Virus record (IMG/VR): IMGVR_UViG_3300028115_000009 | Coordinates: 1-64,000 of that record | Reading direction: 5' to 3' (one strand) | Source: a virus | DNA length: 64,000 bases | Shown: in pieces, positions 167-46,545 of the stretch | Layout: every line of letters begins with the position of its first letter | Numbering within the stretch: the stretch's first letter is position 1 | Translations under genes and position numbers: made by a program | Notes under the pieces: generated by a model | The model's input: the letters and a program-made list of their open reading frames with translations, nothing else | Databases searched by the model: none | What the model was told of the DNA's origin: nothing

Positions 167-1009
167 ATGTCAGCAATAACTGTGGTAACAACATTTCACC
201 CAGCAGGGTTAACAACATATGGACAAAGATTTTTAGATAGTTTTGCAGCAAAGGTTGACAAACGTATTAAATTATTAGTGTATGCAGAAGATTGTAAACC
301 AATTAATCCCGATCCAAGTCGTATTGAAATACTTGATGCCCGAACAGCACTTCCAAAATTAAATGCTTTTAAAGAACGCTGGAAAGATGTACCCAAGGCA
401 AACGGTATTCCGCCGGATGATATTAAAGCAAGGCGTCCTAGAGATTGGAACAAAGAATTTAAATGGAACGCTGTACGCTTTGCTAATAAGACATATGCAG
501 TGTATGACGCTTGTGAACGTAGCAAAGGATGGTGTGTATGGATGGATGCAGATAGCTTTATCCACAGTCCTTGGAGTTACGAAGAGTTTAAAGATCTACT
601 TCCTAGCAATGCTTATATTACATATGTTGGTAGAGGTAAAGGATCTCAGACTTGGCCGGAGTGTGGGTTCTACGGTATGAATCTAAATCATCCTGTGTGT
701 CATAGTTTCTTAGAAGACTTTGAGCGTATGTACGAAGATGCTGAGAACGGTATCTTTACCTTAGAAGAATGGCACGACAGTTATGTGTTCGGTGAGCTAC
801 TAAAGAAGTATAGTGAATTTCCATCGCATGATTACAGTGCAGAAATGTATCTTAAAGAAGCAAAGACTGGTGGAGGCGGACATCCGTTAATTAATGGTCC
901 ACTAGGCAAGTGGATGGACCATATGAAGGGTGTTCGTAAAGAAGAAGGTCGTAGTCGGTCAAAAGACATCATGGTAAATAGAACTGAAGACTACTGGAGT
1001 AATAAGTGA
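167..1009 (+). CDS. GT-A fold glycosyltransferase-like protein
   Basis: This is a 280-aa soluble protein. The segment GWCVWMDADSF (residues 121-131) has the hydrophobic strand followed by D-x-D (Asp127, Asp129) that binds metal and nucleotide-sugar in GT-A enzymes. The N-terminus (AITVVTTFHPAG) looks like the first strand of the donor-binding domain. The sugar and acceptor cannot be inferred. A GAGGAA site precedes the ATG. The downstream methyltransferase starts inside the stop codon (GTGA), so the two are probably cotranslated and act on the same glycan. Remote glycosyltransferase families are the alternative. Confidence 0.7.
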   Translation: MSAITVVTTFHPAGLTTYGQRFLDSFAAKVDKRIKLLVYAEDCKPINPDPSRIEILDARTALPKLNAFKERWKDVPKANGIPPDDIKARRPRDWNKEFKWNAVRFANKTYAVYDACERSKGWCVWMDADSFIHSPWSYEEFKDLLPSNAYITYVGRGKGSQTWPECGFYGMNLNHPVCHSFLEDFERMYEDAENGIFTLEEWHDSYVFGELLKKYSEFPSHDYSAEMYLKEAKTGGGGHPLINGPLGKWMDHMKGVRKEEGRSRSKDIMVNRTEDYWSNK

Positions 1010-1542
1010 AGCCAATTTTATTTAAAGTAATGGAAAGCATTATAGGCAATGCTAAGTGTGAATTCATTGGAGAGATCGGAACGCACAAGGGAGGTACTGC
1101 AAAACAATTTATTAATTTCTTTGCTCCTAGAGTTGAAAAACTAACGTACCATGGATATGATGTATTTGACTTTGGAATAGATAATGTTGAATTCCACAAA
1201 GGCGAACGCAATGGTAAAGCACCTGTAAAATTAACTACTGCAAATATTACTTTTGATAAAGTTAAACGAAAACATCAAAATATAGATATTAAATTGTTTA
1301 AAGGATTTACAACTGATACCTTAGAAACTACTATATTTGATTTTGTATATATTGACGGTGGTCATAGTTACGAAACTGTAAAGCACGATTATAGTAAAGT
1401 TAAAGACAGTAAAATTATTGTGTTTGACGATTGCAAGATTCCCGGAGTTCGGCAAGTAATTAATGAAATTAAAGAATCTGGAATAGACGTCGAAATGGTT
1501 ACTACTCCGTCAAAGCACATTTGGGCAGTTGTTAGGAATTAA
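1006..1542 (+). CDS. Class I SAM-dependent methyltransferase-like protein
   Basis: A 178-aa protein with a Rossmann-type methyltransferase pattern. The glycine-rich motif I is EIGTHKGGTA (residues 23-32). A later FVYIDGGHSYETV segment (113-125) matches the Methyltransf_24 family, which often methylates sugars. The start is GTG at 1006, overlapping the TGA of the glycosyltransferase and supported by TGGAG six bases upstream. An internal ATG at 1030 is a less likely start. The gene converges on the minus-strand gene ending at 1532 and overlaps it by 11 nt. Confidence 0.65.
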   Translation: MKPILFKVMESIIGNAKCEFIGEIGTHKGGTAKQFINFFAPRVEKLTYHGYDVFDFGIDNVEFHKGERNGKAPVKLTTANITFDKVKRKHQNIDIKLFKGFTTDTLETTIFDFVYIDGGHSYETVKHDYSKVKDSKIIVFDDCKIPGVRQVINEIKESGIDVEMVTTPSKHIWAVVRN

Positions 1543-2461
1543 CGTACTGCCTCATATGACGCCAGGCACTGCCGTCTTCTAGTTCACTGAACTTCCAATG
1601 AAACATACTAATACGTTCTAGCCAATGCTGTCTGTCAAACTGTTGTGGTGATTCTAACTTCTCAAATCCAAGATGTGCTACTTCGGCACATTGACTTTTA
1701 GTAGCGTCTGTAATAAATGCGCTGTATCCCATAATAATAGGTCCAACAATGCTACTGCTATTATGATTAACAACAGCATGACAATTTTGTAAATCTTCTA
1801 CTATTGTTCGGTTAATAGGGCTTACGGTAACATGTTTAATTTGATTTAATAATCGCTGTATTTGAGGAGATCTTCTATTAGTTTGATTATCACTAGGATG
1901 CAATCTTACAATAATAGGTCTGTCAGAATGCACTCGTATTTTCTTACAAGTATCTAAAAGCCATGTATCTAAATTTACCTTACCCATGCTCCATCCGCCG
2001 TTGCGTTGAGCACAAATAAGAATATGCCTACCGCTAACTTTTGTATCTTCTATTTTGATGTTTAAGTCTTTAGATATTTGTTGCCAACGACTAGAGTCTA
2101 TACTATCATCAAAATAGTTTCCTGTATTAGGAAACACTCCATCAAAACTGTATCTTAAATAATGGTGGTTGTTTTGATTATTAGCGTAAAGAAATAAATT
2201 AGAATCAGCAGTACATACGTGTGTATTGTCAGTGCGATCAATTACACGCTGTCTTAATTGTAAGTGAGGTAAATTTTTTCCGTGCTCGTGCTGCCAACCT
2301 TGTATCATGCCTACATCACAATGCTGTAAATTAAATCCCCGATGTAATATTCCTGTATCGCCTGCTGCATTTACACCTTGTGTAAATTTTTTTAAGATAT
2401 TAAATTTTTCTTCGCTTTTGTTTTTAGCAGGAATTACATTGTAATAACTAACGACCTTCAT
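1532..2461 (-). CDS. Capsule-polysaccharide-type GT-B-like protein (copy 1)
   Basis: 309 aa. Its C-terminal half has the pattern DRPIIVRLHPSD (180-191) followed by CHAVVNHNSSSIVGPIIMG (227-245). This matches the nucleotide-binding half of capsule biosynthesis and CDP-glycerol-type glycosyltransferases: an R-x-HP motif, then an N-x-SSxxxxP/EA helix. The same signature occurs in the C-terminal part of the gene at 2448-4148 and in the gene at 5520-6428, so the three are paralogues. It overlaps the upstream gene by 14 nt, which suggests translational coupling. The donor and acceptor are unknown. Confidence 0.6.
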   Translation of the reverse strand: MKVVSYYNVIPAKNKSEEKFNILKKFTQGVNAAGDTGILHRGFNLQHCDVGMIQGWQHEHGKNLPHLQLRQRVIDRTDNTHVCTADSNLFLYANNQNNHHYLRYSFDGVFPNTGNYFDDSIDSSRWQQISKDLNIKIEDTKVSGRHILICAQRNGGWSMGKVNLDTWLLDTCKKIRVHSDRPIIVRLHPSDNQTNRRSPQIQRLLNQIKHVTVSPINRTIVEDLQNCHAVVNHNSSSIVGPIIMGYSAFITDATKSQCAEVAHLGFEKLESPQQFDRQHWLERISMFHWKFSELEDGSAWRHMRQYVNS

Positions 2462-4148
2462 TGACTATGCTCCAAGCATACCCGTTCATCATCTCAGCTC
2501 GACTAAATTGACAATAGCTAAGATGTGCCATTAATGCAGTCATTTCATCTTTATCTGGAATATGCAATTTTTCAACATCAGCTAGACTAGTATTGCATAC
2601 CATAGACGCACAATTAGGTCCTAGTGTAATAGCAGGCTTTCCTACCATTAGTGCTTCTAGTGCTGCAATACTATTGTATGTAATTAAGCAATGAACATTT
2701 TGATCAAGAGCTGCTTCTAAAGAATTATTTGCAATTCGATCTGTACGCACCGGTTTAAGTCTAACTTCAATTGGTCGATCAGTATATTGTTTTAACTGTT
2801 CAGTTACAGATTGAATCCATTCTTCTGGACTAGGTTGATTAAATAATTTCATTACTTTGTCACTTGGCGGAACTAATAAAATTTTCTTGCCATCTCTAAA
2901 CTTCTTATATTTCCAACTAAGCAATCTATCGTGCGGGCGTTCAATAATAGGTCCTAGATTTTGTAAGTTATTCTTTGTAACTCTGTGCCAACCTTTTGAT
3001 TTGCTTTTACTGTTTCCAAAGTATCCAGTATCAATGGCATAAAAATCTCTACCAGTATTCCAGCAATGGACTACTGCTTCTCTGCTGCTTTTACCAACAC
3101 CTCTAATAATCAATGGTGACGATGTATTTTGTTCAGCCTCCCATGTACTTAATTTTCCGTTAACACCAATGCTTAACGCTTCTAAATATTCATCGTATAC
3201 ATAAGATTTATTATTGTAATTTAAATCATCGTTAAATATTGCAGCAACTTTATGTGTCTTACTTTCTTGAAATTTGTTTTGGATAATTGCCATTGCCTGT
3301 TCCTCTGTGTATCCGTAATATTGACCAGTGGGATCAATTGTTGAATATGCTAATGCTTTGATTGGTTCTTTTAAATGATCAGGCAACGTTAAATCCATAA
3401 CTGTTTTAGTACCTGTACGTTCATTTACTAATTTTACTGCTGTATTATGTTCTTCTTTTAATAGGTATTGTCTTTCGGCACGATAATATTCACTTGCATA
3501 TTCACAATCATAATATTCTTTAAACCAAGGACCACCTTCTGTGTAGTGTAAGAACTTTGGCTTGCCGTCTTTAGGTTCTTTATACCAGCCTACTAACCAA
3601 TTCCATTCGTGGCTTAAACTACCTATTTCGCTATCTTTTAACCAACTAAATCTATGCAAATACTTGCCATCTATCTTTGGATCATTAACAAATTCTTTAG
3701 TAAGTACACTATTGCTAGGATGTGAACAATTGATTAACATCATACTTGACCAATTTTTACGTGGATATACTGTTTGCTTTTGCCCATCCATTTTAACTCC
3801 TTCTTTAGGAGTGTAGTCGTGATGCGCACACATTACAGCAAACTTATCATTGCGTTGGGCAAATAATTTTTTAACGTCTTCTAATGCCACAAAGTCACAA
3901 TCAATAAACAATGCCCATCCATTAAATCCCATCATCTCAGGTACAAGGAATCGTGTAAATGTAAATTCCGTGCTAGCTAGTTTATCTTCGTCTCTCCAAT
4001 ATATACGATTTCTTTCACGTAACTCTTTTTGTTTTAACGGAATAACTTCAATAGGAACACTTGCAGTCTCAAGTAAACTGTACTTGCAGGTTTGGTATGC
4101 TATATCTTCTCTGCTGTCCCAGCCTACGAAAATCTTTAAAGGTTCCAT
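2448..4148 (-). CDS. Two-domain glycosyltransferase: GT-A N-terminus plus capsule-type GT-B C-terminus
   Basis: 566 aa. Residues 1 to about 230 look like a GT-A domain: IFVGWDSRED at the N-terminus and ALFIDCDFVALED (79-91) with D83-x-D85. Residues from about 300 to the end are the capsule-type GT-B module, with RPIEVRLKP (458-466) and LITYNSIAALEALMVGKPAI (491-510), paralogous to the adjacent genes. Joining two folds in one protein suggests two successive sugar transfers, or transfer coupled to chain assembly. The gene abuts the cytidylyltransferase-cupin gene (shared base at 4148). No signal peptide or membrane segment is visible. Confidence 0.65.
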   Translation of the reverse strand: MEPLKIFVGWDSREDIAYQTCKYSLLETASVPIEVIPLKQKELRERNRIYWRDEDKLASTEFTFTRFLVPEMMGFNGWALFIDCDFVALEDVKKLFAQRNDKFAVMCAHHDYTPKEGVKMDGQKQTVYPRKNWSSMMLINCSHPSNSVLTKEFVNDPKIDGKYLHRFSWLKDSEIGSLSHEWNWLVGWYKEPKDGKPKFLHYTEGGPWFKEYYDCEYASEYYRAERQYLLKEEHNTAVKLVNERTGTKTVMDLTLPDHLKEPIKALAYSTIDPTGQYYGYTEEQAMAIIQNKFQESKTHKVAAIFNDDLNYNNKSYVYDEYLEALSIGVNGKLSTWEAEQNTSSPLIIRGVGKSSREAVVHCWNTGRDFYAIDTGYFGNSKSKSKGWHRVTKNNLQNLGPIIERPHDRLLSWKYKKFRDGKKILLVPPSDKVMKLFNQPSPEEWIQSVTEQLKQYTDRPIEVRLKPVRTDRIANNSLEAALDQNVHCLITYNSIAALEALMVGKPAITLGPNCASMVCNTSLADVEKLHIPDKDEMTALMAHLSYCQFSRAEMMNGYAWSIVNEGR

Positions 4149-4924
4149 TAATCTCTTCTCTCTATATCATCTTCTGTGAGTGTTACACCCATCCAAACTT
4201 CTACAACTCTAGCAGTTACATCGCCTATGTTAGTTGCCTTGTGCCATGTTCTATGAGGAATATCAATACTGCTTCCGGGATAGTATGTTTTAGATTTAGT
4301 ATCTCCATTTTGGTACTCTAAATCCATACGTATAATACCTTCAACAACATGCCAGTGCTCTGAGCGTTTAGAATGGCGTTGGTCGCTTAGTGCTTTGCCT
4401 GCGTCAAATTCAAGTTGTTTAACTTGCCAACCATCGCCTTTGTCTAGCACAGTGTATCTGCCCCATGCACGTTCTGTAGTAGGTTGGCCCCATTCTTTAA
4501 GAATCCAACTACTTGAATTTTTCTTATCCTGGCCGCCTACTCCGTAAGCAAAACTAACTTGGCCTTCGTCATAGTAATGGCGCTCTTCAGGAACATTACC
4601 TTGCTTGCGATCGCCACCGTTAGCAAATATAACTCGTAGATCAGGATCGTAGTCTCGGTCTCTTAACACTTGTTCAATTGCATTTGATGCTGTTCCGTCA
4701 CTATCGTCAAATGCAATTACTTCGTCTACCATTGACAAATTGCCAACAATGGCAGCACGTTCTTGCCAAGGCATAAAAGGACGACCCTTCTTTTGAGTAA
4801 GCCAATTATCGGAATTTAATCCAACTACTAAACGATCGCCTAGTGCTTTTGCTGCTTTGAAGTAGGCAAGGTGCCCGCTATGTAAAGGGTCAAACCCTCC
4901 TGTGACTAATACTACATTGTTCAT
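4148..4924 (-). CDS. Fusion of a cytidylyltransferase-like domain with a mannose-6-P-isomerase-type cupin
   Basis: 258 aa. The N-terminal 120 residues are a nucleotidyltransferase of the RfaE/TagD type: VTGGFDPLHSGHLAYF with the H-x-G-H motif at 15-18, then VVGLNSDNW. The C-terminal 110 residues are a cupin with SEHWHVVEG and SSIDIPHRTWHKATN, resembling the C-terminal domain of type II phosphomannose isomerases. Together they could activate a sugar phosphate with CTP or ATP and isomerise it, a plausible donor supply for the neighbouring transferases. The exact nucleotide and sugar are unknown. The ATG lies 5 nt after a TATAAATA box, so the mRNA may be leaderless. Confidence 0.7.
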   Translation of the reverse strand: MNNVVLVTGGFDPLHSGHLAYFKAAKALGDRLVVGLNSDNWLTQKKGRPFMPWQERAAIVGNLSMVDEVIAFDDSDGTASNAIEQVLRDRDYDPDLRVIFANGGDRKQGNVPEERHYYDEGQVSFAYGVGGQDKKNSSSWILKEWGQPTTERAWGRYTVLDKGDGWQVKQLEFDAGKALSDQRHSKRSEHWHVVEGIIRMDLEYQNGDTKSKTYYPGSSIDIPHRTWHKATNIGDVTARVVEVWMGVTLTEDDIERRD

Positions 4925-4929
4925 GTAGA

Positions 4930-4937
4930 TATTTATA
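4930..4937 (-). promoter_or_regulatory. Late promoter box (TATAAATA), leaderless geometry
   Basis: The minus strand reads TATAAATA, identical to the T4 late promoter, followed by five bases and the ATG at 4924. With the T4 spacing the transcript would start on the A of the ATG. Confidence 0.65.
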
Positions 4938-4986
4938 TGCGTAGTTTATATAAATTATTTTTTATGAAAATTATTTTCTACAAGTT

Positions 4987-5523
4987 TCATTTTTTAAAAA
5001 CCAATCCGTATTTTTTAAAAAATTTACGTTTCATTGAACTCTTTTTTCTAAGTTCTTTTGTTAGTCTTTGATTAAAAGTAAATCCGTATTTTTCAAATAT
5101 TGCTATCCAGTATTCTTCCGTATTGCAGTTTACATGATGATGCCCTGGAGTATTAGGAGGAGCAAATGTCATGCAAACAGTTTTTCCTGAAGAAAAAGTT
5201 TGCATAAAATTATCTAGATATTTTTCTTCCACATGCTCAACAAACTCACAACTCCAAACTAAATCGAAACTTTTATCAAATGTCAAAGGGCCGTTTGTAT
5301 AATCGTGTATGCAAACTTTATTTGGATTTTTTCTTTCAACTTTAAAGTCTCCATCTACTCCTTGCACATCATATCCCAACGATAACGCTTCGTCAAGCAT
5401 GCCTCCTGGACCGCAACCAATATCTAAATAAGATGTAGCACCAGCTTTTTTAAAATACTCTAAAATGTTTTTATCGATGTGAGTTATGCCGCAATGGCCT
5501 CCTAAATGTGTTGGTAAATTCAT
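4987..5523 (-). CDS. Class I SAM-dependent methyltransferase (Methyltransf_11-like)
   Basis: 178 aa from the chosen start. TSYLDIGCGPGGMLDEA is a textbook motif I (D-x-G-C-G-x-G), followed by GVDGDF as motif II and SFDLVWSCEFVEHV as the post-motif acidic loop. The start at 5523 was preferred over an in-frame ATG at 5547. It overlaps the upstream stop as ATGA and has AAAGGAAG a few bases upstream. The substrate is probably a sugar or a glycan-linked group, judged from the glycosyltransferase neighbours. The family also includes small-molecule methyltransferases. Confidence 0.75.
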   Translation of the reverse strand: MNLPTHLGGHCGITHIDKNILEYFKKAGATSYLDIGCGPGGMLDEALSLGYDVQGVDGDFKVERKNPNKVCIHDYTNGPLTFDKSFDLVWSCEFVEHVEEKYLDNFMQTFSSGKTVCMTFAPPNTPGHHHVNCNTEEYWIAIFEKYGFTFNQRLTKELRKKSSMKRKFFKKYGLVFKK

Positions 5524-6428
5524 AATACTTCCTTTAAATGACTCCACATCAAGCCGTTTGTAATTTCTTCATTATTCCAAATTGTGTATGCAATTTTATT
5601 ACACCAAGTACTTATGTCAATATTATAATCCAGGGATTCAATTTTCGATAAATCCTTGTGTCCTATATCATATGCACTTGAGGTAGAACTTAATGTAAAA
5701 ATAGGGATTCCTTTTTCAACTGCTTCAACTGCACTATTACTGCTATAGGTAACAACACAATATGCATTATTTAGATCTTCTTCTAATCCTTTGCCGCCAT
5801 TTAATGTAGTCGTAGAATTATAATTTTTACTAACACTTATATTTTTATATGCATTGTTTAAATTCTCTTCTAACGCATAAAAAGTTTTTGCACCAACCGG
5901 ATGAGGTCTAACTACAATAGGTCTGTCAGTATACCGTCTAATAATTTTAATTTGCTCAATTATATAACTATCGAACGAATTGTATCCTGCATTATACATT
6001 TCTATTAATGCACTGTCTTTCTCTAATTGTCCCATTATAAGAATACTGTCTCCAGGACTATTCCAGTCAGCAAAAGATATGCCTGTATCTTTTTGTATTT
6101 TGTTCCAGCGATAATCATCTACATTGTTATTGTTAAAATTACCAATGCCGTTTTTATAACTGGTCCAGCCCCAACGTTTATAATTTGGCAGTTGTCTTAC
6201 CGCACCCTCTTCGCATACTAAAAAAGGTTTGTTAGAATCCAGTATAAATTTATAGATAGGGTTAAGTTTATTATTAAGATAAGGGTTATAAATGTTAAAC
6301 TGCACATATACATCTATATTAGCAGAAGTATATCTATTAGAGGTCATTAATGTATCCGGGCTAAATCCTTTTGCCCAACCTTCTAAAATTTTTCCTTTGT
6401 TTAATTTTTTAGTATTAAAAATTATCAT
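5520..6428 (-). CDS. Capsule-polysaccharide-type GT-B-like protein (copy 3)
   Basis: 302 aa. Like the proteins at 1532-2461 and 2448-4148, it carries TDRPIVVRPHPVG followed by AYCVVTYSSNSAVEAVEKGI. It also ends with the shared tail pattern of an acidic or Asn-rich stretch, NGLMW and H. The N-terminal half is divergent. The gene overlaps the upstream glycosyltransferase by 14 nt and the downstream methyltransferase by an ATGA junction, so the three are likely made together. Base composition is strikingly AT-rich, more so than in the structural genes. Confidence 0.6.
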   Translation of the reverse strand: MIIFNTKKLNKGKILEGWAKGFSPDTLMTSNRYTSANIDVYVQFNIYNPYLNNKLNPIYKFILDSNKPFLVCEEGAVRQLPNYKRWGWTSYKNGIGNFNNNNVDDYRWNKIQKDTGISFADWNSPGDSILIMGQLEKDSALIEMYNAGYNSFDSYIIEQIKIIRRYTDRPIVVRPHPVGAKTFYALEENLNNAYKNISVSKNYNSTTTLNGGKGLEEDLNNAYCVVTYSSNSAVEAVEKGIPIFTLSSTSSAYDIGHKDLSKIESLDYNIDISTWCNKIAYTIWNNEEITNGLMWSHLKEVL

Positions 6429-7074
6429 TTAACAAAGTTTTAATTAATTTATCACCGTGATTAGAAATCCAATCTTTGTATAACTTTCGATCAGTTTCCA
6501 TATTAGAATTAACTTGGTTATAAGTTTCATCTAAAGATGTTTTTCCTGTTGACCAGTGTACGTGTTCAACTACAATATCTTCACGTAATACAATACAATT
6601 TAATCCTTCGCCGATGTATTGCCAGCTGTCATCTAAGAAAAAATGTTTAGTAGCAGGATGCCCAAACCAACCAACTGCTCTTACTAAATCTCCGCCACAA
6701 ACAGGATGTGTGGGCAAATGTTTCTTTTTCTGTTTACCTAAGTCATCAGGATGGGCAATTTTACGTAAGCCTGCTTCTTCAACAAGCTGTTTGTCCCAGT
6801 AGTTAGTACGAGGAACAATATCATCTGCTCCTAATCCGTACCAATCTTCGTTAGGATACTTATGAAACATTTCTTCCATTGCTGCTTTAAGTCCTTCCCT
6901 AGGACCAACAACTACTTCAAATGTATTAGGATAATCTAACGCAAGATATTCTTCTAACTTAGGATCATCGTCGTCTAATCTAACGTAGACTTTGCTACTG
7001 CCTTTAGTTGCAATATATGCTTCTATAAATCTTTTTAAGTTGTGAGGACGACCTCTAGTTGGTAAACTCCACAT
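6415..7074 (-). CDS. GT-A (family 2-like) glycosyltransferase
   Basis: 219 aa. It starts MWSLPTRGRPHNLKRFIEAY, the typical opening of family-2-like glycosyltransferases. It then has VYVRLDDDDP (29-38) and GLGADDIVPRTNYWD, the acidic loops that bind metal and donor. There are no membrane segments, so it is cytoplasmic. It shares one base with the upstream GT25 stop (TAATG) and overlaps the downstream capsule-type gene by 14 nt, placing it in a coupled glycan operon. The sugar specificity is not deducible. Confidence 0.65.
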   Translation of the reverse strand: MWSLPTRGRPHNLKRFIEAYIATKGSSKVYVRLDDDDPKLEEYLALDYPNTFEVVVGPREGLKAAMEEMFHKYPNEDWYGLGADDIVPRTNYWDKQLVEEAGLRKIAHPDDLGKQKKKHLPTHPVCGGDLVRAVGWFGHPATKHFFLDDSWQYIGEGLNCIVLREDIVVEHVHWSTGKTSLDETYNQVNSNMETDRKLYKDWISNHGDKLIKTLLNDNF

Positions 7075-7760
7075 TATAATAACCCCGGGTTTGCTGTTAA
7101 ACTTGCAGTACTGATATTGTTACCTTCTGCATAAAATGGATGCAATCTTGCTATAGTCGGCACTGTAGTCTTAAGATTAACTATCCTTGAATTAATTTGT
7201 TGATCTGCAGGACGATGACCGTTTACATTAATAAAATTAATAAGTTTTTTAGCAGCGTGAGGCTTTATTATATAAGAGTATGCACCTTTAAAATAATCTC
7301 TTAATCCGTATTTTACTACCTTTATAGGATTATTAGTATAATCTTCTACAGTTACTTTTAGATCTTTTTCTAAATCTAAATCACTATTATAAGTTCTGCT
7401 ATACGGATCCAGTCTATCTAATTTTAGTACATCATCAAACTGATCTAATAATAGCGGATCAATCGGTCGTATTAAGTAACCGTCATGTTCTAGAATAACA
7501 ATAGGTTCATTTAACTCTATACACTTTTGCCAAAGATAGTAATGGCTAAAAAAACATCCAACTACACCTAGTCTATCTTTTTTAAATTTTCCGTGTTTTT
7601 TTATATTTGTGTTCTTGTAATGAAACTCTGCATCATTGCCGTTTATTGCTTTAAAATATTCAGGGCGAAGTCCATATTTTACAGCTTGAAGCAAACATTC
7701 TTCTGCCATTTGACAAGAATGTTTGTTTTCTTCTAAGCGAATAATAAAACTCTTGATCAC
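7074..7760 (-). CDS. Glycosyltransferase family 25 (LPS biosynthesis) protein
   Basis: 228 aa. The N-terminus SFIIRLEENKHSCQMAEECL and the block GVVGCFFSHYYLWQKCIELN followed by EPIVILEHDG match the GT25 family. That family transfers galactose or related sugars in LPS outer-core synthesis. The E-H-D triad corresponds to the usual E-D-D acidic site, with the middle residue changed to His. The start codon is GTG at 7760 and forms a GTGA overlap with the uvsY stop, tying this sugar gene to the recombination operon. The acceptor could be host LPS or a virion glycan. Confidence 0.75.
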   Translation of the reverse strand: MIKSFIIRLEENKHSCQMAEECLLQAVKYGLRPEYFKAINGNDAEFHYKNTNIKKHGKFKKDRLGVVGCFFSHYYLWQKCIELNEPIVILEHDGYLIRPIDPLLLDQFDDVLKLDRLDPYSRTYNSDLDLEKDLKVTVEDYTNNPIKVVKYGLRDYFKGAYSYIIKPHAAKKLINFINVNGHRPADQQINSRIVNLKTTVPTIARLHPFYAEGNNISTASLTANPGLL

Positions 7761-8454: not shown

Positions 8455-9540
8455 TTATTCCTCGTAAGTTTCTTCGATTAAATCAGTTGTATCATTTTCT
8501 ACAACATCGTCGGTATTTACCACTGCTGCTGTTTTTTCATTGTACTCTGACATAATCATGTCCAATTTAGGACCGATCCATTGCTTACGATAATCAAGAT
8601 GTTCAACGCCTGCTAAGTCAACGTACTTGAGTCGATTGCCTTGCTTTTCTAACAAGCCTTTCTTCTCAAACAATTCAACTAGACCTGAATAAGGATTCAT
8701 ACCAGTTTCATAAGGAATCTTAACCTGCACACCTTCGAACGGTTTTGCATAGCGTGTCTTCATTACTTTACAACCAGCACGGATGCCCATTACTTCTGAG
8801 ATCTTATTGCCGTCTTCATCTTCTTTCAACTTCATCTTCTTCATTGCAACAACAATACTTGATGCATAGATAAAGCCTGAGCCGCCGCTGATCTTATCGT
8901 CTGGATCAAACATATCTTGTGAAGCATATGTGTGGTTAGTACAAACTAAGCCTACATTGTAGCTACCAATCATGTTTACAGTATTGCGGACTAATGAAGT
9001 TAGTGCTTTAGGCTTACGGCCCATATCACCCTTCATATCACCCTTTTGGAACTGATCAACGTCAGTAGGCGTTAACAGCATACCAAGTGAGTCAATTACA
9101 AACAATACTTTAGGACGATCTTCTTCAGCCATTGCTTTGTAATCTGTCATGAAAGTTGAGATAGTTTTCGCTACATCATCAATCATTGCCATATTAAGTT
9201 TAAGCAATTTATCTTCGCCTGTTTGCACACCTAGTGCATGCAACCAAGTTTCATCAAGTGCATTCTCTGAGTCAATTAGAACTACAAAGATACCTTGATC
9301 TTGTGCGTGTTTGATAATGTTTCCTGAACAGAAATAACTCTTACCTGCTCCTGATTCACCTGCAAACACAGTTACCTTACCTAGCGGAACACCTTTGTGA
9401 AAGTCGCCACTGATAAGAAAGTTTAATGCGTATGATCCTGTTGAAATCCAATCAGTAGGATCGTTAAATCCAGCACTCACGCCTGAGATACTTTTAGTCA
9501 AGTCCTTACGAAACTTGCTAACGTCAAATGATTTAGCCAT
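8455..9540 (-). CDS. uvsX: UvsX RecA-like recombinase
   Basis: 361 aa. UvsX is the T4-type strand-exchange protein used in recombination-dependent replication and repair. Walker A is GESGAGKS (61-68), Walker B is VLFVIDS (145-151), and a RecA-like region follows (VGLVCTNHTYAS). The C-terminus is acidic, as in RecA-family proteins. The start MAKSFDVSKF at 9540 was chosen because TAGGAG lies a few bases upstream. The longer frame from 9567 adds nine residues that include the ribosome-binding site. A hairpin terminator separates it from gp32. Confidence 0.93.
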   Translation of the reverse strand: MAKSFDVSKFRKDLTKSISGVSAGFNDPTDWISTGSYALNFLISGDFHKGVPLGKVTVFAGESGAGKSYFCSGNIIKHAQDQGIFVVLIDSENALDETWLHALGVQTGEDKLLKLNMAMIDDVAKTISTFMTDYKAMAEEDRPKVLFVIDSLGMLLTPTDVDQFQKGDMKGDMGRKPKALTSLVRNTVNMIGSYNVGLVCTNHTYASQDMFDPDDKISGGSGFIYASSIVVAMKKMKLKEDEDGNKISEVMGIRAGCKVMKTRYAKPFEGVQVKIPYETGMNPYSGLVELFEKKGLLEKQGNRLKYVDLAGVEHLDYRKQWIGPKLDMIMSEYNEKTAAVVNTDDVVENDTTDLIEETYEE

Positions 9541-9569
9541 GTTTTCTCCTAATATAAAAAGCGGCAAAG

Positions 9570-31556: not shown

Positions 31557-32699
31557 ATGAAAGTTTTAGTTCTTGGTGATATAATCATCGACAAATACAT
31601 CTACGGAACCAGCACAAGATTAAGTCCAGAGGCTCCTGTCCCTGTAGTTAAGTATCTGCGTGAAGTTGAAACAATAGGCGGCGCAGGTCTAGTATATGAA
31701 AATCTTAAAAGTTTAGGTGTTGATGTTGAACTGTTTAAAACAGATAATGCTAGCAGTATCAAAACTAGAGTAATTTGCGACGGTCATTATATCACACGCA
31801 TTGATGATGACAAACACGCCAACGGCAATGTAGTGCTAGACACTATACGAGCAACTGATTTCTCGCAGTACAACTATGTTATTCTCAGTGACTATAACAA
31901 AGGTGTGTTAGATCGTTCTTTAGAAATTATAGAACATCTTAATAGTTTTGGCTGTAAAGTTATTGTAGATCCTAAACGTCATTCTAGTTATTATAAAGGC
32001 GCATGGTTAGTTAAACCTAATAACAAAGAATATCGTGAGTTAGGATTTGATACTTGGCTAGGTAACATTATTACAACTCACGCACATGACGCAGTACATG
32101 CTAAGATTGACAATGCTGATTATACCGCAATTGTAGATCAAGTCGAAGTATCAGATGTTACTGGAGCAGGTGATTGTTTCTTAGCAGCATTTGTATACGG
32201 TATTGACATTGGAAAAAATTACGCAACTTGTTTGCAAATGGCTGTTGACGCAGCAACTGAAAGTGTAAAACATGCAGGTACATATGTCTTAAGTAAAAAA
32301 GATTTTGAACAATCTATAGTGTTTACTAATGGCGTATTTGATATACTACACAAAGGACATTTTGAACTATTAAAACAAGCTCGCAGTTTAGGTACTAAAC
32401 TTGTAGTAGGTATTAACAGTGACGCAAGTGTTAAAAGGCTTAAAGGCGACAGTCGACCGATTAATGATGAACAAACTAGAATAGAGCAACTTGAAGCATT
32501 GCCTTGGGTAGATGAAGTGTTTGTGTTTAACGACGACACTCCGTATAACTTAATTAAAAGATTAAACCCTGCTCTTATTGTTAAGGGCGGAGATTATACT
32601 GTAGAAACTGTAGTAGGGCATGACTTAGCACCTGTGCATATTGTGCCTACAGTAGAAGGTTACAGTACAACAAGAATTATAGAGGCAAGCAATGCATAA
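31557..32699 (+). CDS. hldE: HldE-like heptose-7-P kinase / heptose-1-P adenylyltransferase
   Basis: 380 aa, against about 477 in E. coli HldE. The N-terminal PfkB-type kinase domain (1 to about 245) has VLVLGDIIIDKYIYG, SPEAPVPVV with GGAG, and the anion-hole signature VTGAGDCFLAAF (about 200-211). The C-terminal adenylyltransferase has FTNGVFDILHKGHFELL with H-x-G-H, then VGINSDASVKRLKG. HldE phosphorylates D-glycero-D-manno-heptose 7-phosphate and later adenylates the 1-phosphate. The kinase part is about 70 residues shorter than usual. The next gene overlaps by 8 bases. Confidence 0.88.
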   Translation: MKVLVLGDIIIDKYIYGTSTRLSPEAPVPVVKYLREVETIGGAGLVYENLKSLGVDVELFKTDNASSIKTRVICDGHYITRIDDDKHANGNVVLDTIRATDFSQYNYVILSDYNKGVLDRSLEIIEHLNSFGCKVIVDPKRHSSYYKGAWLVKPNNKEYRELGFDTWLGNIITTHAHDAVHAKIDNADYTAIVDQVEVSDVTGAGDCFLAAFVYGIDIGKNYATCLQMAVDAATESVKHAGTYVLSKKDFEQSIVFTNGVFDILHKGHFELLKQARSLGTKLVVGINSDASVKRLKGDSRPINDEQTRIEQLEALPWVDEVFVFNDDTPYNLIKRLNPALIVKGGDYTVETVVGHDLAPVHIVPTVEGYSTTRIIEASNA

Positions 32700-34128
32700 C
32701 ACAGTAAACAATATAACAATAGTAGGTGGCGGAACAAGTGGATGGCTAACTGCTGCTTATCTTTTAAAGAATACAGCCTGTAATATAACTGTTGTTGACA
32801 AAGAAGTTGGAACGCCTGTTGGAGTTGGAGAAGGCACGTTATTAGGTTTTAAACATTTCTTAGCAGAATGCGGATTTAAACAAGAAGAATGGTTTGATGC
32901 TATCGATGCAACATACAAAGCAGGCATTTTGTTCCCTCAATTTAATGGCGATAAAAACTTAGTATGGCATCCGTTTACATTAAATATGGATTATAGCAAA
33001 TACGATGCCAATGTCTACGAAGCGTTAACATATATTGAACAAGAAAAAATTAACGAATTAATGATGTTTTTTAATATAAGTTTAGAAAACAAAGTAGACA
33101 TTAATAATTTGAATTCTGCATATGCAATGCACATCGATTGCAGTAAGTTAGTTATTTGGTTACAAGAAAAAATATTATCACGTATTACTTTAATTAAATC
33201 TGAAGTAGTTGCTATTAATCGTACAGACAATATCATTAATCATCTTACTCTTAAAAACGGTGATACAATTAATTCTGACTTGTTTGTAGATTGTACAGGA
33301 TTTAATCAAGTACTACAACATAGTCCACAACGAACCGATCTTACTAATAGACTGTTTTGTGACACTGCTGTAGCCGGTCATGTTCCTTACATAGATGCAG
33401 AAGTCGAATGTATGCCTTATGTAGAATGTCCAGCAGTCGACCATGGATGGATTTGGAAAATTCCTGTCCGATCGCGAACAGGAACTGGTTTAGTGTTCAA
33501 TAGAAGTATAACAAGCATTGACGAGGCGAAACAATATCTATGCAAGCATTGGAATGATAGAATCACTCCAGATGATTTAAAAGTAATAGACTGGACCCCG
33601 TATTATAACAAAAATATGTGGGACGGTAATGTTGTTGCTATAGGCCTAAGTGGCGGATTTATTGAACCGTTAGAATCTACTGGTATAGGATCTATTACTA
33701 ATGCTATTGTATATTTGACGCATAGTATTAATACAGGATATTATAATGAATATGATATCGAAATATTTAATAGTACAATGAATGCGCTATATGAAGACAC
33801 TATTGATTTTGTTAATATGCATTACATTTATACAGATAAAAATACACCTTTTTGGAATCATGTTAAAGAAAATATCATTCCGTCAGAAACATATTTGTAT
33901 TACAAAAATATAATAGAAGCCGGAACACCTATTAACTATAACGGAAAGGGTTATTTGTTTGGCGGCGCAAATTGGATTTGTTGGCTGCTGCAATTTGAAA
34001 AGAATATAGGAAAAAATAAAAACATCGATGATGATATTGCAAATGAAATATTATCAAATTGGAGCGAGACTATTTCCGACGTTGATAATAGTCAATATAT
34101 TATTTCTCACTTACAGGCAATTAAATGA
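32692..34128 (+). CDS. Flavin-dependent (tryptophan) halogenase-like protein 1
   Basis: 478 aa. The FAD-binding GGGTSG is at 12-17. The candidate catalytic lysine lies in ATYKAGILF (Lys76), corresponding to Lys79 of PrnA. The family motif W-x-W-x-I-P is intact as GWIWKIP (about 251-257), and EPLESTGIG holds the Glu-Ser pair of the active site. It should generate HOX from FADH2, O2 and halide and halogenate a substrate. Marine phage halogenases are known, including cyanophage VirX1, which iodinates. It lies inside the ADP-heptose operon, overlapping hldE by 8 and hldD by 4 bases. The substrate is unknown. Confidence 0.82.
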   Translation: MHNTVNNITIVGGGTSGWLTAAYLLKNTACNITVVDKEVGTPVGVGEGTLLGFKHFLAECGFKQEEWFDAIDATYKAGILFPQFNGDKNLVWHPFTLNMDYSKYDANVYEALTYIEQEKINELMMFFNISLENKVDINNLNSAYAMHIDCSKLVIWLQEKILSRITLIKSEVVAINRTDNIINHLTLKNGDTINSDLFVDCTGFNQVLQHSPQRTDLTNRLFCDTAVAGHVPYIDAEVECMPYVECPAVDHGWIWKIPVRSRTGTGLVFNRSITSIDEAKQYLCKHWNDRITPDDLKVIDWTPYYNKNMWDGNVVAIGLSGGFIEPLESTGIGSITNAIVYLTHSINTGYYNEYDIEIFNSTMNALYEDTIDFVNMHYIYTDKNTPFWNHVKENIIPSETYLYYKNIIEAGTPINYNGKGYLFGGANWICWLLQFEKNIGKNKNIDDDIANEILSNWSETISDVDNSQYIISHLQAIK

Positions 34129-34934
34129 AAATATTAATAACAGGTCACGAAGGATTTATTGGTAAAAATTTAGCGCCATTTCTTGACAAAGATAATGAGT
34201 TATTCGGATATGAATGGAATCCAGCCGCGTTGCCTGATGTATCTCAATATGATTGGGTTATACATTTAGGAGCAATTAGTGCAACTACTGAACGCGACAT
34301 AGATAAAGTAATGTTGCAAAATTATGAATTTTCAAAGTGGTTGTTTAATGAGTGTAACACCAACGGAGTAAATCTACAATACGCTTCGAGCGCAAGTGTA
34401 TACGGCTCTAACACTGATTTTAGAGAAGACGCACCAAAGCAGCCCCAGAGCTATTATGCAACAAGCAAGTACTTGTTTGACCGTTGGGTTATGCAACAAA
34501 AGCACGACATTATAGTACAAGGATTTCGTTACTTTAATGTATACGGACCGTATGAAGATCACAAAGGAAATCAAGCAAGCCCTATAACCAAGTTCTTTAA
34601 ACAAGCAAAAGAAGAAGGCGTTATTACACTGTTTGAAAATAGTGACAAGTATCTAAGAGACTTTATATATGTAGGTGATTGTTGTAACATACATCGTTAC
34701 ATGCTCACAACATCTGAGAAAGGTATATTTAATATCGGTACCGGAGTTGCAACAAGTTTTCAAACTATTGCAGAATTAGTTGCAAAACGATTTAAAGCTA
34801 AGATTGAATATATTCCAATGCCTGATAATCTTAAAGGACAATATCAAGAATACACATGTGCAAACATAGAACGTTTAAGTAATATAGTAAACATTAACTT
34901 CACAACACCAAAGGATTTTATAAATGGAAAATAA
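34125..34934 (+). CDS. hldD: HldD-like ADP-heptose 6-epimerase (NAD-dependent SDR)
   Basis: 269 aa (E. coli HldD about 310). The extended-SDR fold shows GHEGFIG (7-13), WVIHLGAISATTERD, SSASVYG (88-94) and Y-x3-K (Tyr111, Lys115). HldD-specific blocks are RYFNVYGPYEDHKGNQASP, RDFIYVGDC and LKGQYQEYTCANIERL. It converts ADP-D-glycero- to ADP-L-glycero-beta-D-manno-heptose. It is coupled by ATGA to the halogenase-like gene and overlaps the cupin gene by 11 bases. Other sugar epimerases are possible, but the HKGNQAS and GQYQ blocks favour HldD. Confidence 0.83.
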   Translation: MKILITGHEGFIGKNLAPFLDKDNELFGYEWNPAALPDVSQYDWVIHLGAISATTERDIDKVMLQNYEFSKWLFNECNTNGVNLQYASSASVYGSNTDFREDAPKQPQSYYATSKYLFDRWVMQQKHDIIVQGFRYFNVYGPYEDHKGNQASPITKFFKQAKEEGVITLFENSDKYLRDFIYVGDCCNIHRYMLTTSEKGIFNIGTGVATSFQTIAELVAKRFKAKIEYIPMPDNLKGQYQEYTCANIERLSNIVNINFTTPKDFINGK

Positions 34935-35316
34935 ACAGCCAACACGGTTAAGCGGCGCAGTACAAAAAGGCTGGGGCTACGAATTAATTTGGGCTACTAA
35001 CGACAAGTACTGTGGAAAGATTATGTTTTTTAATAAAGAAGGCATGAAGACCAGCATGCATTTTCACAAAGAAAAAGACGAAACATGGTTTATAAATAGC
35101 GGAAAATTTAAAGTACGTTATATTGATACTGCTGATTCGATGCTATATGAAAAAGAATTAAATGAAGGCGATGTTTGGCATAACCCGCCATTAATGCCGC
35201 ACCAATTAGTAGCAATGCAAGATGAATCGAGTCTAACCGAAGTGAGTACTCCAGATAGCGTAGAAGATAATTTTCGTATCGGCCCAGGAGACAGCCAGAC
35301 TGCGAGTAGCAAATGA
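34924..35316 (+). CDS. Small cupin protein in the heptose operon
   Basis: 130 aa single cupin domain. The metal-site residues are in MHFHKEKDETWFINSG (H-x-H, then E) and PPLMPHQLVAM (His). It opens with WGYELIWATNDKYCGKIMF, as in phosphomannose-isomerase-type and sugar-binding cupins. It could isomerise or epimerise a sugar phosphate, and a GmhA-like step is otherwise missing from this operon. That link is speculative, as GmhA is an unrelated SIS-domain protein. It overlaps hldD by 11 bases and gmhB by 4 bases (ATGA). Confidence 0.7.
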   Translation: MENKQPTRLSGAVQKGWGYELIWATNDKYCGKIMFFNKEGMKTSMHFHKEKDETWFINSGKFKVRYIDTADSMLYEKELNEGDVWHNPPLMPHQLVAMQDESSLTEVSTPDSVEDNFRIGPGDSQTASSK

Positions 35317-35960
35317 GTAATTATAACATAGTATGGAGCAACGAAGTTAAGAAACAAGAGTATGTTCCTGTATATGACAATATACATAACATTGCTCCTA
35401 AGTGTGTTGTAGGGTTAGATCGAGACGGTGTAATTAATGTCGACAGAGGTACTTACACGTATCGTCCTGAAGATTTCAAACCTATAGACGGTAGCTTAGA
35501 AGCAATTGCTAAACTAAGACGAATGGGTCACAAAATTGCCATTATTACAAATCAAGGCGGAATTGGTAAAGGGCTATACACAGAGTCAGATGTTGACAAA
35601 GTTCATGAGTATATGTTTCAATTGTTAGGCGAAGCAGGTTGTCCAAGTATTGATGCATTATACTATAGCACTACAAGTTTGCGAGAAGACAATTTTGCAA
35701 AACCCAATACTGGAATGTTCAAACGATGCCAGGACGAGTTCAAATACATTAAATTCAAACACGGATACTTTGTAGGCGATAAAATATCCGATCTTAAAGC
35801 TGCATTTAAAATGAGCGCAGTACCAGTCCTTGTACGCACAGGACACGGTGAAGAAACTATCAAAGAACTAAACAAATTCAGTAATCAAAAGATAAAGAAA
35901 AAGACCATCATTTTTGACGATCTTTCTCAGTTTGTTGATTGGTTGGAAAAGAAAAATTAA
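35313..35960 (+). CDS. gmhB: GmhB-like heptose-1,7-bisphosphate 7-phosphatase (HAD family)
   Basis: 215 aa. HAD motifs: GLDRDGVIN (34-42, nucleophile Asp36, acid Asp38), IITNQGGIGKG (78-87), KPNTGMF with the motif III Lys, and YFVGDKISDLKAAF (motif IV). It would remove the 7-phosphate between the two HldE steps. The usual GmhB zinc loop (C-x-H...C-x-C) is replaced by STTSLREDNFA with no Cys, so it appears zinc-free. It is longer at the N-terminus by about 30 residues. It converges on the minus-strand gene at 35957 with a 4-base overlap. Confidence 0.82.
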   Translation: MSNYNIVWSNEVKKQEYVPVYDNIHNIAPKCVVGLDRDGVINVDRGTYTYRPEDFKPIDGSLEAIAKLRRMGHKIAIITNQGGIGKGLYTESDVDKVHEYMFQLLGEAGCPSIDALYYSTTSLREDNFAKPNTGMFKRCQDEFKYIKFKHGYFVGDKISDLKAAFKMSAVPVLVRTGHGEETIKELNKFSNQKIKKKTIIFDDLSQFVDWLEKKN

Positions 35961-36532
35961 AAAGTTATTGCAAAGTTTGCACTAATTGTAACTCTTGTAG
36001 CTTGGGTTTGATTATACGTTACATAATGATCCAAGCTACTCGGAAACAATACAACACTTCCTTCTGTCATTTCTGGCACATACTTGTTACCATATATTTC
36101 TGTTTGTAAATTAACCTTTTGAAAAAAGTCATTGCTTGATTTATAGAAAACAAAATCACCACTATTTTCTGGTTTTTCTAACATATACGCACAACTAATA
36201 ACATTTGATCCATTAGAGTGGGCATGCACTTCTTGATGTTGTCCATAGTTGTATCTATTCATCCAAGCCTGGCATCCAATGGAATATTGTCCTATTCCGC
36301 CAATGTCGTTTACATATTTTTCAACTAACGGTAACACACTATTAAAAAACTTATCCCACGGCATTCCTGCAATCGGTTCGTTGCCAAATGTAGAATCTGC
36401 ATTGCAACTCCATCCTACAGGAGTTGCAAAATTAGCATCGTCTACCGAAAATGGAAGAAAGGCTTCTTTAAGCCTTTCGTGGTCTGGCATCTTGCATTCG
36501 TAAATTGGAGTTGAGAAGATCTCATTAATCAT
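35957..36532 (-). CDS. Fe(II)/2-oxoglutarate oxygenase-like protein 1 (TIGR02466 type)
   Basis: 191 aa. The pattern EIFSTPIYECKMP at the N-terminus, WMNRYNYGQHQEVHAHSNGS with candidate metal His103 and His105, and VVLFPSSLDHYVTYN with the distal His169 followed by Arg180, is that of phage and marine putative 2OG oxygenases of the TIGR02466 family. Such enzymes hydroxylate proteins, sugars or small molecules. The substrate is unknown. It overlaps the carbamoyltransferase gene by 8 bases and converges on gmhB. Confidence 0.7.
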   Translation of the reverse strand: MINEIFSTPIYECKMPDHERLKEAFLPFSVDDANFATPVGWSCNADSTFGNEPIAGMPWDKFFNSVLPLVEKYVNDIGGIGQYSIGCQAWMNRYNYGQHQEVHAHSNGSNVISCAYMLEKPENSGDFVFYKSSNDFFQKVNLQTEIYGNKYVPEMTEGSVVLFPSSLDHYVTYNQTQATRVTISANFAITF

Positions 36533-38345
36533 TTTTAATAGTTACCAGTTTGTTATACTCAGGTAGATACAAATATTCAATATCGCTACTTGCTAATGTT
36601 CTAAATGCATCATCTAATGTCTCAACTAATGGCTCGCCTCCTAAGTTAAAACTTGTATTAAATACAATCGGTACTCCTGTTTGCTTATAAAGTTCTTTAA
36701 TCAAATCGTAGTAATGCGGATTTTGTTCACGCTTGACTGTTTGGATACGACATGTACCGTCTACGTGAATAATGCTTGGAATTTTTTCTGCAATACCTTC
36801 TTGACAATTCATAGCATACATCATATGCGGAGATTCTTCTAGGCCGCGCATATCAAACCATTCATGTGCATGCTCATGCAAAATAGATCCTGCAAACGGA
36901 CGGAAGTACTCTCTACGTTTAACTTTATTAACAAAGTCTTTACCATTAGGATCAGTTGGGTCATACATGATACTTCTATTTCCTAATGCACGAGGACCAT
37001 TTTCTGATTTACCTTGGAACAAAGTAACAATATTTCTTTCACCGTTTGTTTTACCAGTCATAAGATTAATGACTTCTGTGTTAGTAATATCAGATAATTC
37101 TGCATTATATTTTTCTGCTAACGTATTAATTTCTTCGTCAGTATAGTTGTATTGCGGGCCTAAATATAAGCTGTCTGCAAATGCTCGCTGAGTGTCATCG
37201 TTAGTTAACATATGATAGCCAAATAATGCTGCGCCAATGCACGTACCTGCATCGCTACTTATTGGTTCAACATAAAAGTTTATGCCTTCGCCTTCTAATT
37301 CTTTTAAGTACCAGTAGTTAGCAACACAATTTAAGCCATAACCTCCGCTTAATACAATGTTTTTAATTCCTGTATCTGCAACTGCTTTTCGAATTAAACG
37401 CAGTACTTCTGATTGACTTTGTGTTTGTACTGCGTATGCCATATCACGACGATTCTGCAAATACGTTAATTCGTCTTTGTCTTGAATGTCAGTAGGTGTA
37501 AGTAGATATTCGTAACGACCTTCGTTAATAACAGCGCCGTTTGGATATGTAGGAATAACTAAATTCCTATCAGTTGTACGCCACATGCCGCCATTGCCGT
37601 CTGAGTAAATAGCAGGAACATTGTCGTTTTTCTCTCCGTACGGGAACAGTCCCATAGTCTTACCAGCCTCAATCGGCGACCAACCGCAGTATTGCGTAAC
37701 CGCTTCATATGCCTTTGTAATGCCTGCTGTGTCGTCTATTATTAACTCGTGAGTTTCGCCAGTTTCGCCAAAATTATCACTTGGCATATCTTCAATATGT
37801 GCAGCAGGCCAAGGGCCTCTTCCTCCTTGATGTTTATACACTGTTTTAAAATTAGCAGGGTATCTACAAGTAAAGATAGATTCTAATTCCCAGGTCATTT
37901 CAGTAGTTTCACCCATTTGCATAGGAATAAATGTTCCTGCACCATCTACAATAAGTGCCACTGCATTATCAAAACCTGATCTATAAAATGCACATGCTGC
38001 ATGAAGTTTATGATGCATGTGTGCTAAATCAATTACTTGTGGATGATTATATGGATCTTCTGTTCGAGAAATTAATCCCAACTTACGAGCTAATCCTGTA
38101 TAAACATCGTCACCTGTAAAATCAACAGTTCCTGCTGTTTCTTTTAAAGGCTGTGTATGTGCGATAAACAAGTAATCTAATTTATCAGTGTAATCTAATA
38201 TTTTAAGCATTGATGCGTAAGGGCCGCCGTCGTACTTATGTCTACTTAATCGTTCTTCTTCGATTGCAAAAACAATTTCGCCATCTTTTAATAAGCAAAC
38301 GCCTGAATTATGGCCCCTTGCTATTGCTGCTATCCACTGTGCCAT
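36525..38345 (-). CDS. Carbamoyltransferase (NodU/CmcH/TobZ family)
   Basis: 606 aa, full family length. The N-terminal Kae1-like domain shows ARGHNSGVCLLKDG, HMHHKLHAACAFYRSGFDNA (metal His111/His115) and IVDGAGTF. The C-terminal YrdC-like-related part has SENGPRALGNRSIMYDPTDP and REYFRPFAGSILHEHAHEWF. These enzymes move a carbamoyl group from carbamoyl phosphate and ATP to a hydroxyl, typically on a sugar of an antibiotic, Nod factor or polysaccharide. Its place between putative oxygenases and near a GT9 suggests carbamoylation of a heptose-containing glycan, which is inference. Confidence 0.88.
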   Translation of the reverse strand: MAQWIAAIARGHNSGVCLLKDGEIVFAIEEERLSRHKYDGGPYASMLKILDYTDKLDYLFIAHTQPLKETAGTVDFTGDDVYTGLARKLGLISRTEDPYNHPQVIDLAHMHHKLHAACAFYRSGFDNAVALIVDGAGTFIPMQMGETTEMTWELESIFTCRYPANFKTVYKHQGGRGPWPAAHIEDMPSDNFGETGETHELIIDDTAGITKAYEAVTQYCGWSPIEAGKTMGLFPYGEKNDNVPAIYSDGNGGMWRTTDRNLVIPTYPNGAVINEGRYEYLLTPTDIQDKDELTYLQNRRDMAYAVQTQSQSEVLRLIRKAVADTGIKNIVLSGGYGLNCVANYWYLKELEGEGINFYVEPISSDAGTCIGAALFGYHMLTNDDTQRAFADSLYLGPQYNYTDEEINTLAEKYNAELSDITNTEVINLMTGKTNGERNIVTLFQGKSENGPRALGNRSIMYDPTDPNGKDFVNKVKRREYFRPFAGSILHEHAHEWFDMRGLEESPHMMYAMNCQEGIAEKIPSIIHVDGTCRIQTVKREQNPHYYDLIKELYKQTGVPIVFNTSFNLGGEPLVETLDDAFRTLASSDIEYLYLPEYNKLVTIKND

Positions 38346-40465: not shown

Positions 40466-40473
40466 TATTTATA
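40466..40473 (-). promoter_or_regulatory. Late-type TATAAATA box upstream of GT9
   Basis: A perfect TATAAATA on the minus strand, 63 bases before the GT9 ATG. Unlike the other boxes it would give a leader of about 58 nt. Confidence 0.4.
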
Positions 40474-40508: not shown

Positions 40509-40516
40509 TATAAATA
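40509..40516 (+). promoter_or_regulatory. Late promoter box (TATAAATA) for halogenase-like 2, leaderless geometry
   Basis: TATAAATA, five bases (TCAGT), then ATG at 40522. The predicted transcript start is the A of the ATG, and no ribosome-binding site is visible. Confidence 0.65.
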
Positions 40517-44940: not shown

Positions 44941-44959
44941 TATTTATAGCAGTATAAGA

Positions 44960-45708: not shown

Positions 45709-46545
45709 TTAAGCATATGTAATTCTTACTATTCCTGAGCCGCCGCCCTGGCCGCCTGCACAACATTTTGCGTTATTACCACAATATGAGCTTAGGCCAC
45801 TCGTTCCACCTGTTCCTGGAGGTGCTGCGTAACAACCACAAGTACACCAAGATTCAGATGCGCCACTTGCTCCTGATAATCCAATAATCGGAGCTTGTCC
45901 TGTCCATTGCATAACCCTCCAACAGTGACACCCGCCGTGACCTGGTTTCATTCCGACAGTACCCATCATTCCAAAATCAGAGCCAAACATTCCGCAAATA
46001 TTACAGTTAGCACACCCCTGTGTATGATGTCTTGGTCCCCAAGCATCACCATTACACATCCATCCGCCACAACCACCAGTAACACAGAAGTTACTTAGAT
46101 TGTGTCCATTTACGTATGAACGACATCCCATACCTGCACTACAAGTATGCGATTTATTACAAGGCCAAGTTCCTCCAGCACACACGGTATATGTACATCC
46201 AGGGCTTGTTGATATCGTTCTAATGGCGTAGTTGCCTCCAGCGCCACCAATTGAGAACGAACAGCAGTTACAACAGGTGTGACCTGCTCCGCCGCCCCCA
46301 CCTGACCAAATTTCAAAAGTAACTCTACATACTTTTGATGGCACAGTAAATAAACAGCATGCGCCGCAATATTGACAACAACATCCTCCAGCGCTTGCAC
46401 ACTGGTGACATTGCATCATTCTACTATTATATATCCAAACAGTGTTATATCTAACACCTGCACCATTTGCTAATTGATTCGAATTAACAAAATTATCTGG
46501 TATTTGGTCTGTTTTTAGCTGTTTATAGCTGTCATACGTTGCCAT
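45709..46545 (-). CDS. Cys/Gly-rich tail adhesin-like protein, copy A
   Basis: 278 aa with 32 cysteines (about 11.5%) and abundant Gly. An N-terminal ~65-residue segment is followed by a TVPSKVCRVTFEIWSGGGGG core and CCNCCSFSIGGAGGNYAI. A long Gly/Cys-rich body follows, with WPCNKSHTC, GCRSYVNG and CNGDAWG motifs. The end GGGSGIVRITYA is shared by all three copies. Poly-Gly tips of T2/S16-type gp38 adhesins form stacked helices; this family may do so with added disulfides or metals. The middle segment around residues 165-235 differs most between copies. Ribosome-binding site AAGGAA. Confidence 0.72.
   Translation of the reverse strand: MATYDSYKQLKTDQIPDNFVNSNQLANGAGVRYNTVWIYNSRMMQCHQCASAGGCCCQYCGACCLFTVPSKVCRVTFEIWSGGGGGAGHTCCNCCSFSIGGAGGNYAIRTISTSPGCTYTVCAGGTWPCNKSHTCSAGMGCRSYVNGHNLSNFCVTGGCGGWMCNGDAWGPRHHTQGCANCNICGMFGSDFGMMGTVGMKPGHGGCHCWRVMQWTGQAPIIGLSGASGASESWCTCGCYAAPPGTGGTSGLSSYCGNNAKCCAGGQGGGSGIVRITYA
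46246..46314 (-). repeat. Near-identical 69-base core shared by three adhesin paralogues (copy A)
   Basis: The 69 bases encoding FEIWSGGGGGAG...CCSFSIGG are identical here and at 47100-47168, and differ by only a few bases at 47955-48023. The surrounding codons of the same proteins have diverged more. Confidence 0.85.

Follow-up and report, generated by a model that had tools for sequence, protein, structure and literature searches.

The window, which is the whole 64,000-nt stretch of DNA analysed and belongs to an 87.6-kb virus record, carries on its minus strand a gene for a single protein in which a nucleotidyltransferase domain is followed by a cupin of the mannose-6-phosphate isomerase (PMI) type (Table 1). 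The gene lies in a block (167-7760) composed mostly of glycosyltransferase- and methyltransferase-like genes, and its stop codon overlaps the start codon of the GT8-like gene downstream in the sequence TAATG at 4146-4150. Just upstream of the fusion gene, the T4 late-promoter-like sequence TATAAATA was noted at 4930-4937 (-), and further copies lie at 40509-40516 (+), 40466-40473 (-) and 44941-44948 (-). Of the six copies in the window, these four each precede a start codon on their own strand by no more than about 100 nt, and in two cases the distance to an ATG is exactly 5 nt. Because the sequence shows no overall enrichment across the 64,000-nt window (6 found against 9.2 expected), no promoter role is claimed for it.

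Table 1. Coordinates of the fusion gene, its domains and motifs, the surrounding genes and the four-domain relative.
Feature	Position	Strand	Basis
Nucleotidyltransferase-PMI cupin fusion gene, 258 aa	4148-4924	-	ORF; 125 distinct full-length relatives
N-terminal HxGH nucleotidyltransferase domain, residues 1-146, HldC/HldE-domain-II-like	4487-4924	-	PF01467; TIGR02199; model against 5xf2
C-terminal cupin, type II PMI family, residues 148-258	4151-4483	-	PF01050; model against 7zvm
HSGH motif, residues 15-18	4871-4882	-	H15, G17 and H18 kept in 125/125
SSSW, residues 137-140, second nucleotide-binding motif	4505-4516	-	Invariant in 125/125
PMI motif S180-x-Q182-x-H184-xx-R187-x-E189-x-W191	4352-4387	-	125/125 fusions, 25/25 bacterial yardsticks
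H228, expected last metal ligand of the cupin	4241-4243	-	125/125 fusions, 25/25 bacterial yardsticks
GT8-like glycosyltransferase (N-terminal, phrog_28018), DxD motif, 566 aa, downstream gene	2448-4148	-	phrog match and weak PDB GT8 match
Methyltransferase gene, directly upstream of the fusion in the same block	4987-5547	-	Pfam
Phage glycosyltransferase family phrog_14945, same block	6415-7074	-	phrog match
GT25-family glycosyltransferase, same block	7074-7760	-	GT25 domain also in the 711-aa fusion of a relative
711-aa four-domain protein	L065:4047-6182; L067:3289-5424; L069:5880-8015		

In Pfam, MannoseP_isomer (PF01050) matched residues 150-256 of the 258-aa fusion (E 2.2e-20; 73.4 bits against a cut-off of 23.6) and CTP_transf_like (PF01467) matched residues 7-104 (E 1.4e-13; 51.7 bits against a cut-off of 21). 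As both domains are well over their cut-offs, the pair is not a product of chance, and the proposal of the sequence-only reading that an HxGH nucleotidyltransferase and a PMI cupin share one chain was borne out. Among the NCBIfam profiles, the best for the N domain was TIGR02199 (HldE domain II), with 74.9 bits and below its cut-off of 181.5, and TIGR01518 (glycerol-3-phosphate cytidylyltransferase) gave 46 bits, also below its cut-off (165.4); both scores fall too far short for a substrate to be assigned from them. TIGR01479 (GMP_PMI) matched the cupin part of the fusion only, with 65.8 bits against a cut-off of 372.95. The earlier label of cytidylyltransferase agrees with the family name of PF01467 but could be kept only in part, as the results do not favour CTP above ATP or GTP and the nearest profile and structure are those of heptose-1-phosphate adenylyltransferases.

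The AlphaFold model of the whole fusion had a pLDDT of 92 and a pTM of 0.59, indicating that the domains are well modelled but that their mutual orientation is uncertain. Comparison of the cupin with the PDB by sequence gave weak matches, and a structural search was needed; the cupin model was found to be close to the PMI of Thermococcus barophilus (7zvm; TM 0.89 by target length, 1.6 A), a match picked among cupins of similar size, with many other cupins matching too, as expected for the fold. Because the fold search with the whole protein was dominated by cupins, the N domain was modelled separately (pLDDT 87), and its nearest solved structure was HldC from Burkholderia pseudomallei (5xf2; TM 0.68-0.69 by query, 34-35% identity), with glycerol-3-phosphate cytidylyltransferases as the next structural neighbours. 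Since HldC and the archaeal PMI both handle manno-configured sugar phosphates, the two domains appear from these models to point independently to substrates of this kind. The N domain could instead be a genuine cytidylyltransferase acting on a phosphate other than that of a sugar (glycerol phosphate, ethanolamine phosphate or a phosphonate), with a cupin that binds or modifies an unrelated ligand, and cytidylyltransferases for glycerol 3-phosphate, ethanolamine phosphate and phosphonates are indeed among its next neighbours in structure and sequence. Such a role is distinctly unlikely, given that HldC is the closest structure, that the full PMI motif is kept in the fused cupin and that the coupled gene encodes a glycosyltransferase.

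Other proteins with this domain pair were found mainly in viral contigs. A first scan of these contigs returned 109 relatives of the fusion, of which 80 were retained, and a second scan, performed with an alignment, returned at least 594. The retained loci yielded 125 distinct full-length proteins with both domains, almost all of 248-284 aa and one of them a bacterial copy; as this recovery favours full-length matches, it does not count architectures without bias. With 125 distinct proteins of this kind, chance or an assembly artefact was ruled out as the source of the fusion. No place covering both domains was found in 34 named-phage records, in which the parts occur separately, and no place covering 80% of the fusion query was found in a plasmid collection. 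Relatives of the N domain alone, about 54% identical, of 153-156 aa and sharing the NSSSW motif but having no cupin, are present in the cyanophages S-SSM7 and P-TIM68 and in the marine virus AG-345-D19, and stand-alone cupins are present in the marine viruses AG-345-L05, AG-345-E15 and AG-345-D19.

The bacterial copy comes from a Porticoccaceae MAG (L084:5995-6765), where it is flanked by the gene of a DEAD-box helicase on one side and a phosphatase-like gene on the other; no gene of obvious phage type lies within about 6 kb, and it is apparently carried by the bacterium itself. Among the matches listed for 299 genomes of the phylum of this MAG, the pair was seen only in that MAG. The other listed matches were confined to the cupin, and most lay in ORFs of 450-550 aa, which agrees with type II PMI. 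When 35 fusion cupins were placed in a tree with 25 bacterial cupins and 3 phage stand-alone cupins, the fusions all fell on one side of a branch with an SH-aLRT of 100, a pattern that fits a single origin of the fusion cupins; the tree was built on few columns, and its inner forks are unsure.

Across the 125 proteins, the N domain was found to keep H15-x-G-H18, K45-K46, R56, G103-G104-D105-R106, K134 and N136-S-S-S-W140 without exception, the SSSW stretch having been equated with the ISTT/CSTT motif of relatives by inspection of its position. In the cupin, S180, Q182, H184, R187, E189, W191, H228, N232, E242, D253 and R256 are likewise invariant and are the same letters in all 25 bacterial yardstick cupins; S, Q, H and R have been named as important PMI residues (PMC9602691). 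The metal and PMI residues hold across fusion proteins as divergent as about 46-50% identity (n = 125). The fusion cupins do not have H186, the pocket residues R229 and Y248 or the DxYGR tail, all of which are constant in the 25 bacterial type II PMI yardsticks, and have in W227 an invariant residue of their own, so the sugar of the fusion may differ from that of type II PMI. Loss of the same four features, together with the occurrence in cyanophages of close relatives of the N domain by itself (54% identity), would also suit a protein in which only the nucleotidyltransferase is catalytic and the cupin serves for binding, regulation or scaffolding, or in which the cupin has switched to a different isomerisation or epimerisation. 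This is very unlikely, as metal and PMI residues invariant in 125 divergent proteins are hard to explain without catalysis.

In type II PMI, two domains of one protein perform the first and last steps to GDP-mannose, and a phosphomutase performs the middle one. The fusion has in common with these PMI/GDP-mannose pyrophosphorylases (ManC/AlgA/PslB; TIGR01479) the PF01050 cupin, the PMI motif and the placing of an isomerase and a nucleotidyltransferase on one chain. It differs from them in its nucleotidyltransferase, which is of the HxGH type (PF01467) rather than a GMP, in its length (258 aa compared with about 470) and in its cupin, which is without the DxYGR tail and the other constant residues and falls outside the type II sample in the tree. 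Since the defining GDP-mannose pyrophosphorylase domain is missing, the fusion stands outside the type II PMI family, although it would work in the same manner, and the earlier statement that the pairing departs from the usual one, with its GMP of a different fold, held true. HldC and HldE domain II share the HxGH fold and supply both the closest structure (TM about 0.7) and the best NCBIfam profile, but the fusion is far below the curated cut-off and has a PMI cupin attached, whereas those domains stand alone or are fused to a PfkB kinase. Phage-borne cupins of the type II-like PMI kind are also represented by the cyanophage MPIs of PMC9602691, all of which were reported to be monofunctional, and by the AG-345 cupins; neither group has a nucleotidyltransferase, whereas both domains are present in 125/125 fusions. 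Each part was thus already known. The possibility that the pair itself was already well described was looked into, and no description of it as a conserved virus family was found in the literature searched, which had little coverage of subscription journals; as such a family, the pair is provisionally regarded as new.

In 55 of the 125 fusion loci, the gene directly downstream on the strand of the fusion is GT8-like and has a conserved D-x-D, the assignment coming from weak Pfam and PDB matches plus this motif, and most of these 55 genes overlap the fusion by a 4-nt or 1-nt stop/start. Such a gene is found within 3 kb downstream in 13 more loci and nearby otherwise in 3; 4 loci are cut off too early to show one, and 49 of the 125 contain none in the stretch examined, some loci being short or truncated. 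The coupling extends to a 711-aa protein, identical on three contigs, that joins the nucleotidyltransferase, the PMI cupin, a GT8-like domain and a GT25 domain. Neighbours of the relatives also include methyltransferases and members of the NAD-dependent epimerase and UDP-glucose/GDP-mannose dehydrogenase families. The fusion is carried by many aquatic bacterial viruses, which would most likely use it to make sugar donors for their own glycosyltransferases.

From the domain pair, the conserved motifs, the fold matches, the gene coupling and the joining to glycosyltransferases, the fusion is proposed, with a probability of roughly 0.6, to be a phage bifunctional nucleotide-sugar synthesis enzyme that feeds the neighbouring glycosyltransferases. 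The metal-dependent cupin would interconvert the phosphates of a ketose and of a manno-configured aldose, in the simplest case fructose 6-phosphate to mannose 6-phosphate, and a host phosphomutase would shift the phosphate to C1 (mannose 6-phosphate to mannose 1-phosphate). The HldC-like N domain would then couple the sugar 1-phosphate to a nucleotide with release of pyrophosphate (mannose 1-phosphate + NTP to NDP-mannose), and the donor would be used by the adjacent GT8-like (and GT25) glycosyltransferases to decorate a glycan of the phage or of its host. Both activities and the order of the steps are putative, as are the sugar, nucleotide and acceptor; the scheme would follow the logic of type II PMI, with first and last steps on one chain and an unrelated nucleotidyltransferase fold. 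The phosphomutase domain PF02878 was found in 0 of 40 related virus records and in 14 of 14 control genomes, which fits supply of the middle step by the host. The compact two-step donor-sugar enzyme suggested by the sequence-only reading is accordingly the best-supported reading in view of intact sites in 125/125 proteins, the HldC and PMI neighbours and the glycosyltransferase coupling, but it was supported only in part, and its two steps are probably not consecutive, since, just as for type II PMI, the conversion that separates them requires a phosphomutase, or a kinase plus a phosphatase. More tentatively, the fusions may form a virus-specific enzyme class, convergent with type II PMI and sometimes joined to its glycosyltransferases in a single multidomain machine, that starts from central metabolites and makes an unusual NDP-manno-sugar, e.g. 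ADP- or CDP-mannose, independently of host GDP-mannose.

Mannose is slightly favoured over heptose as the sugar. In a manno-heptose pathway, the cupin would replace GmhA (sedoheptulose 7-phosphate to D-glycero-D-manno-heptose 7-phosphate), HldE-kinase- and GmhB-like enzymes would act between the two domains, and the N domain would make NDP-heptose, the isomerase chemistry being the same with one more carbon. This would suit the HldC/HldE-II-like N domain and the presence in the window's virus of HldE-, HldD- and GmhB-like proteins (31557-35960), with GmhA found neither in the 87.6-kb record nor in any of 40 related records. It is nonetheless unlikely: among the 40 related records, which are fragments, only 7 have an HldE-kinase-like and 3 a GmhB-like sequence, the HldE-like protein of the window has a nucleotidyltransferase domain of its own, and a separate small cupin (34924-35316) in the same cluster could be the isomerase. 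On these counts, a heptose pathway was rejected as a general partner of the fusion. GDP-mannose dehydratase was over its cut-off in 3 of 41 virus records and just below it in 3 more, and HldD-like sequences were present in 9 of 41 (7 over 200 bits, including the window's own), counts too low to decide the sugar. Strong HldD-like matches (>200 bits, 7 records) and GDP-mannose dehydratase (6 records) never occurred in the same record of the 41, although these numbers are small.

If the function proposed for the fusion is correct, aquatic phages of a widespread group carry a short route of their own to an activated sugar, coupled to glycosyltransferases by gene overlap and, by fusion, in one protein. 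This would provide a concrete handle on phage self-glycosylation or host-surface remodelling, and a case in which one two-step logic has been assembled from unrelated parts.

Elsewhere in the window, a UvsX-like gene (8455-9567) has its best named relatives in large phages, e.g. Sinorhizobium phage Phosso and Agrobacterium phage Atu_ph07; labels such as gp32 and uvsY for genes near it would come from position and sequence resemblance and carry no weight here. The cluster at 31557-35960 (+) encodes an HldE-like kinase/nucleotidyltransferase, a tryptophan-halogenase-like flavoprotein, an HldD-like epimerase, the small cupin, which could stand in for GmhA, and a GmhB-like phosphatase. A NodU-type carbamoyltransferase (36525-38345, -) and a second tryptophan-halogenase-like flavoprotein (40522-42003, +) point to further modification enzymes in the phage. 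Three tandem proteins of 278-279 aa (45709-46545, 46560-47399 and 47415-48254, all -) are apparently paralogous, each with a Cys-rich stretch like CxQCxxAGGCxCQxC, and a single ORF of 3722 aa at 50621-61789 (-) may, judged from its size and position alone, encode a giant tail or fibre protein.
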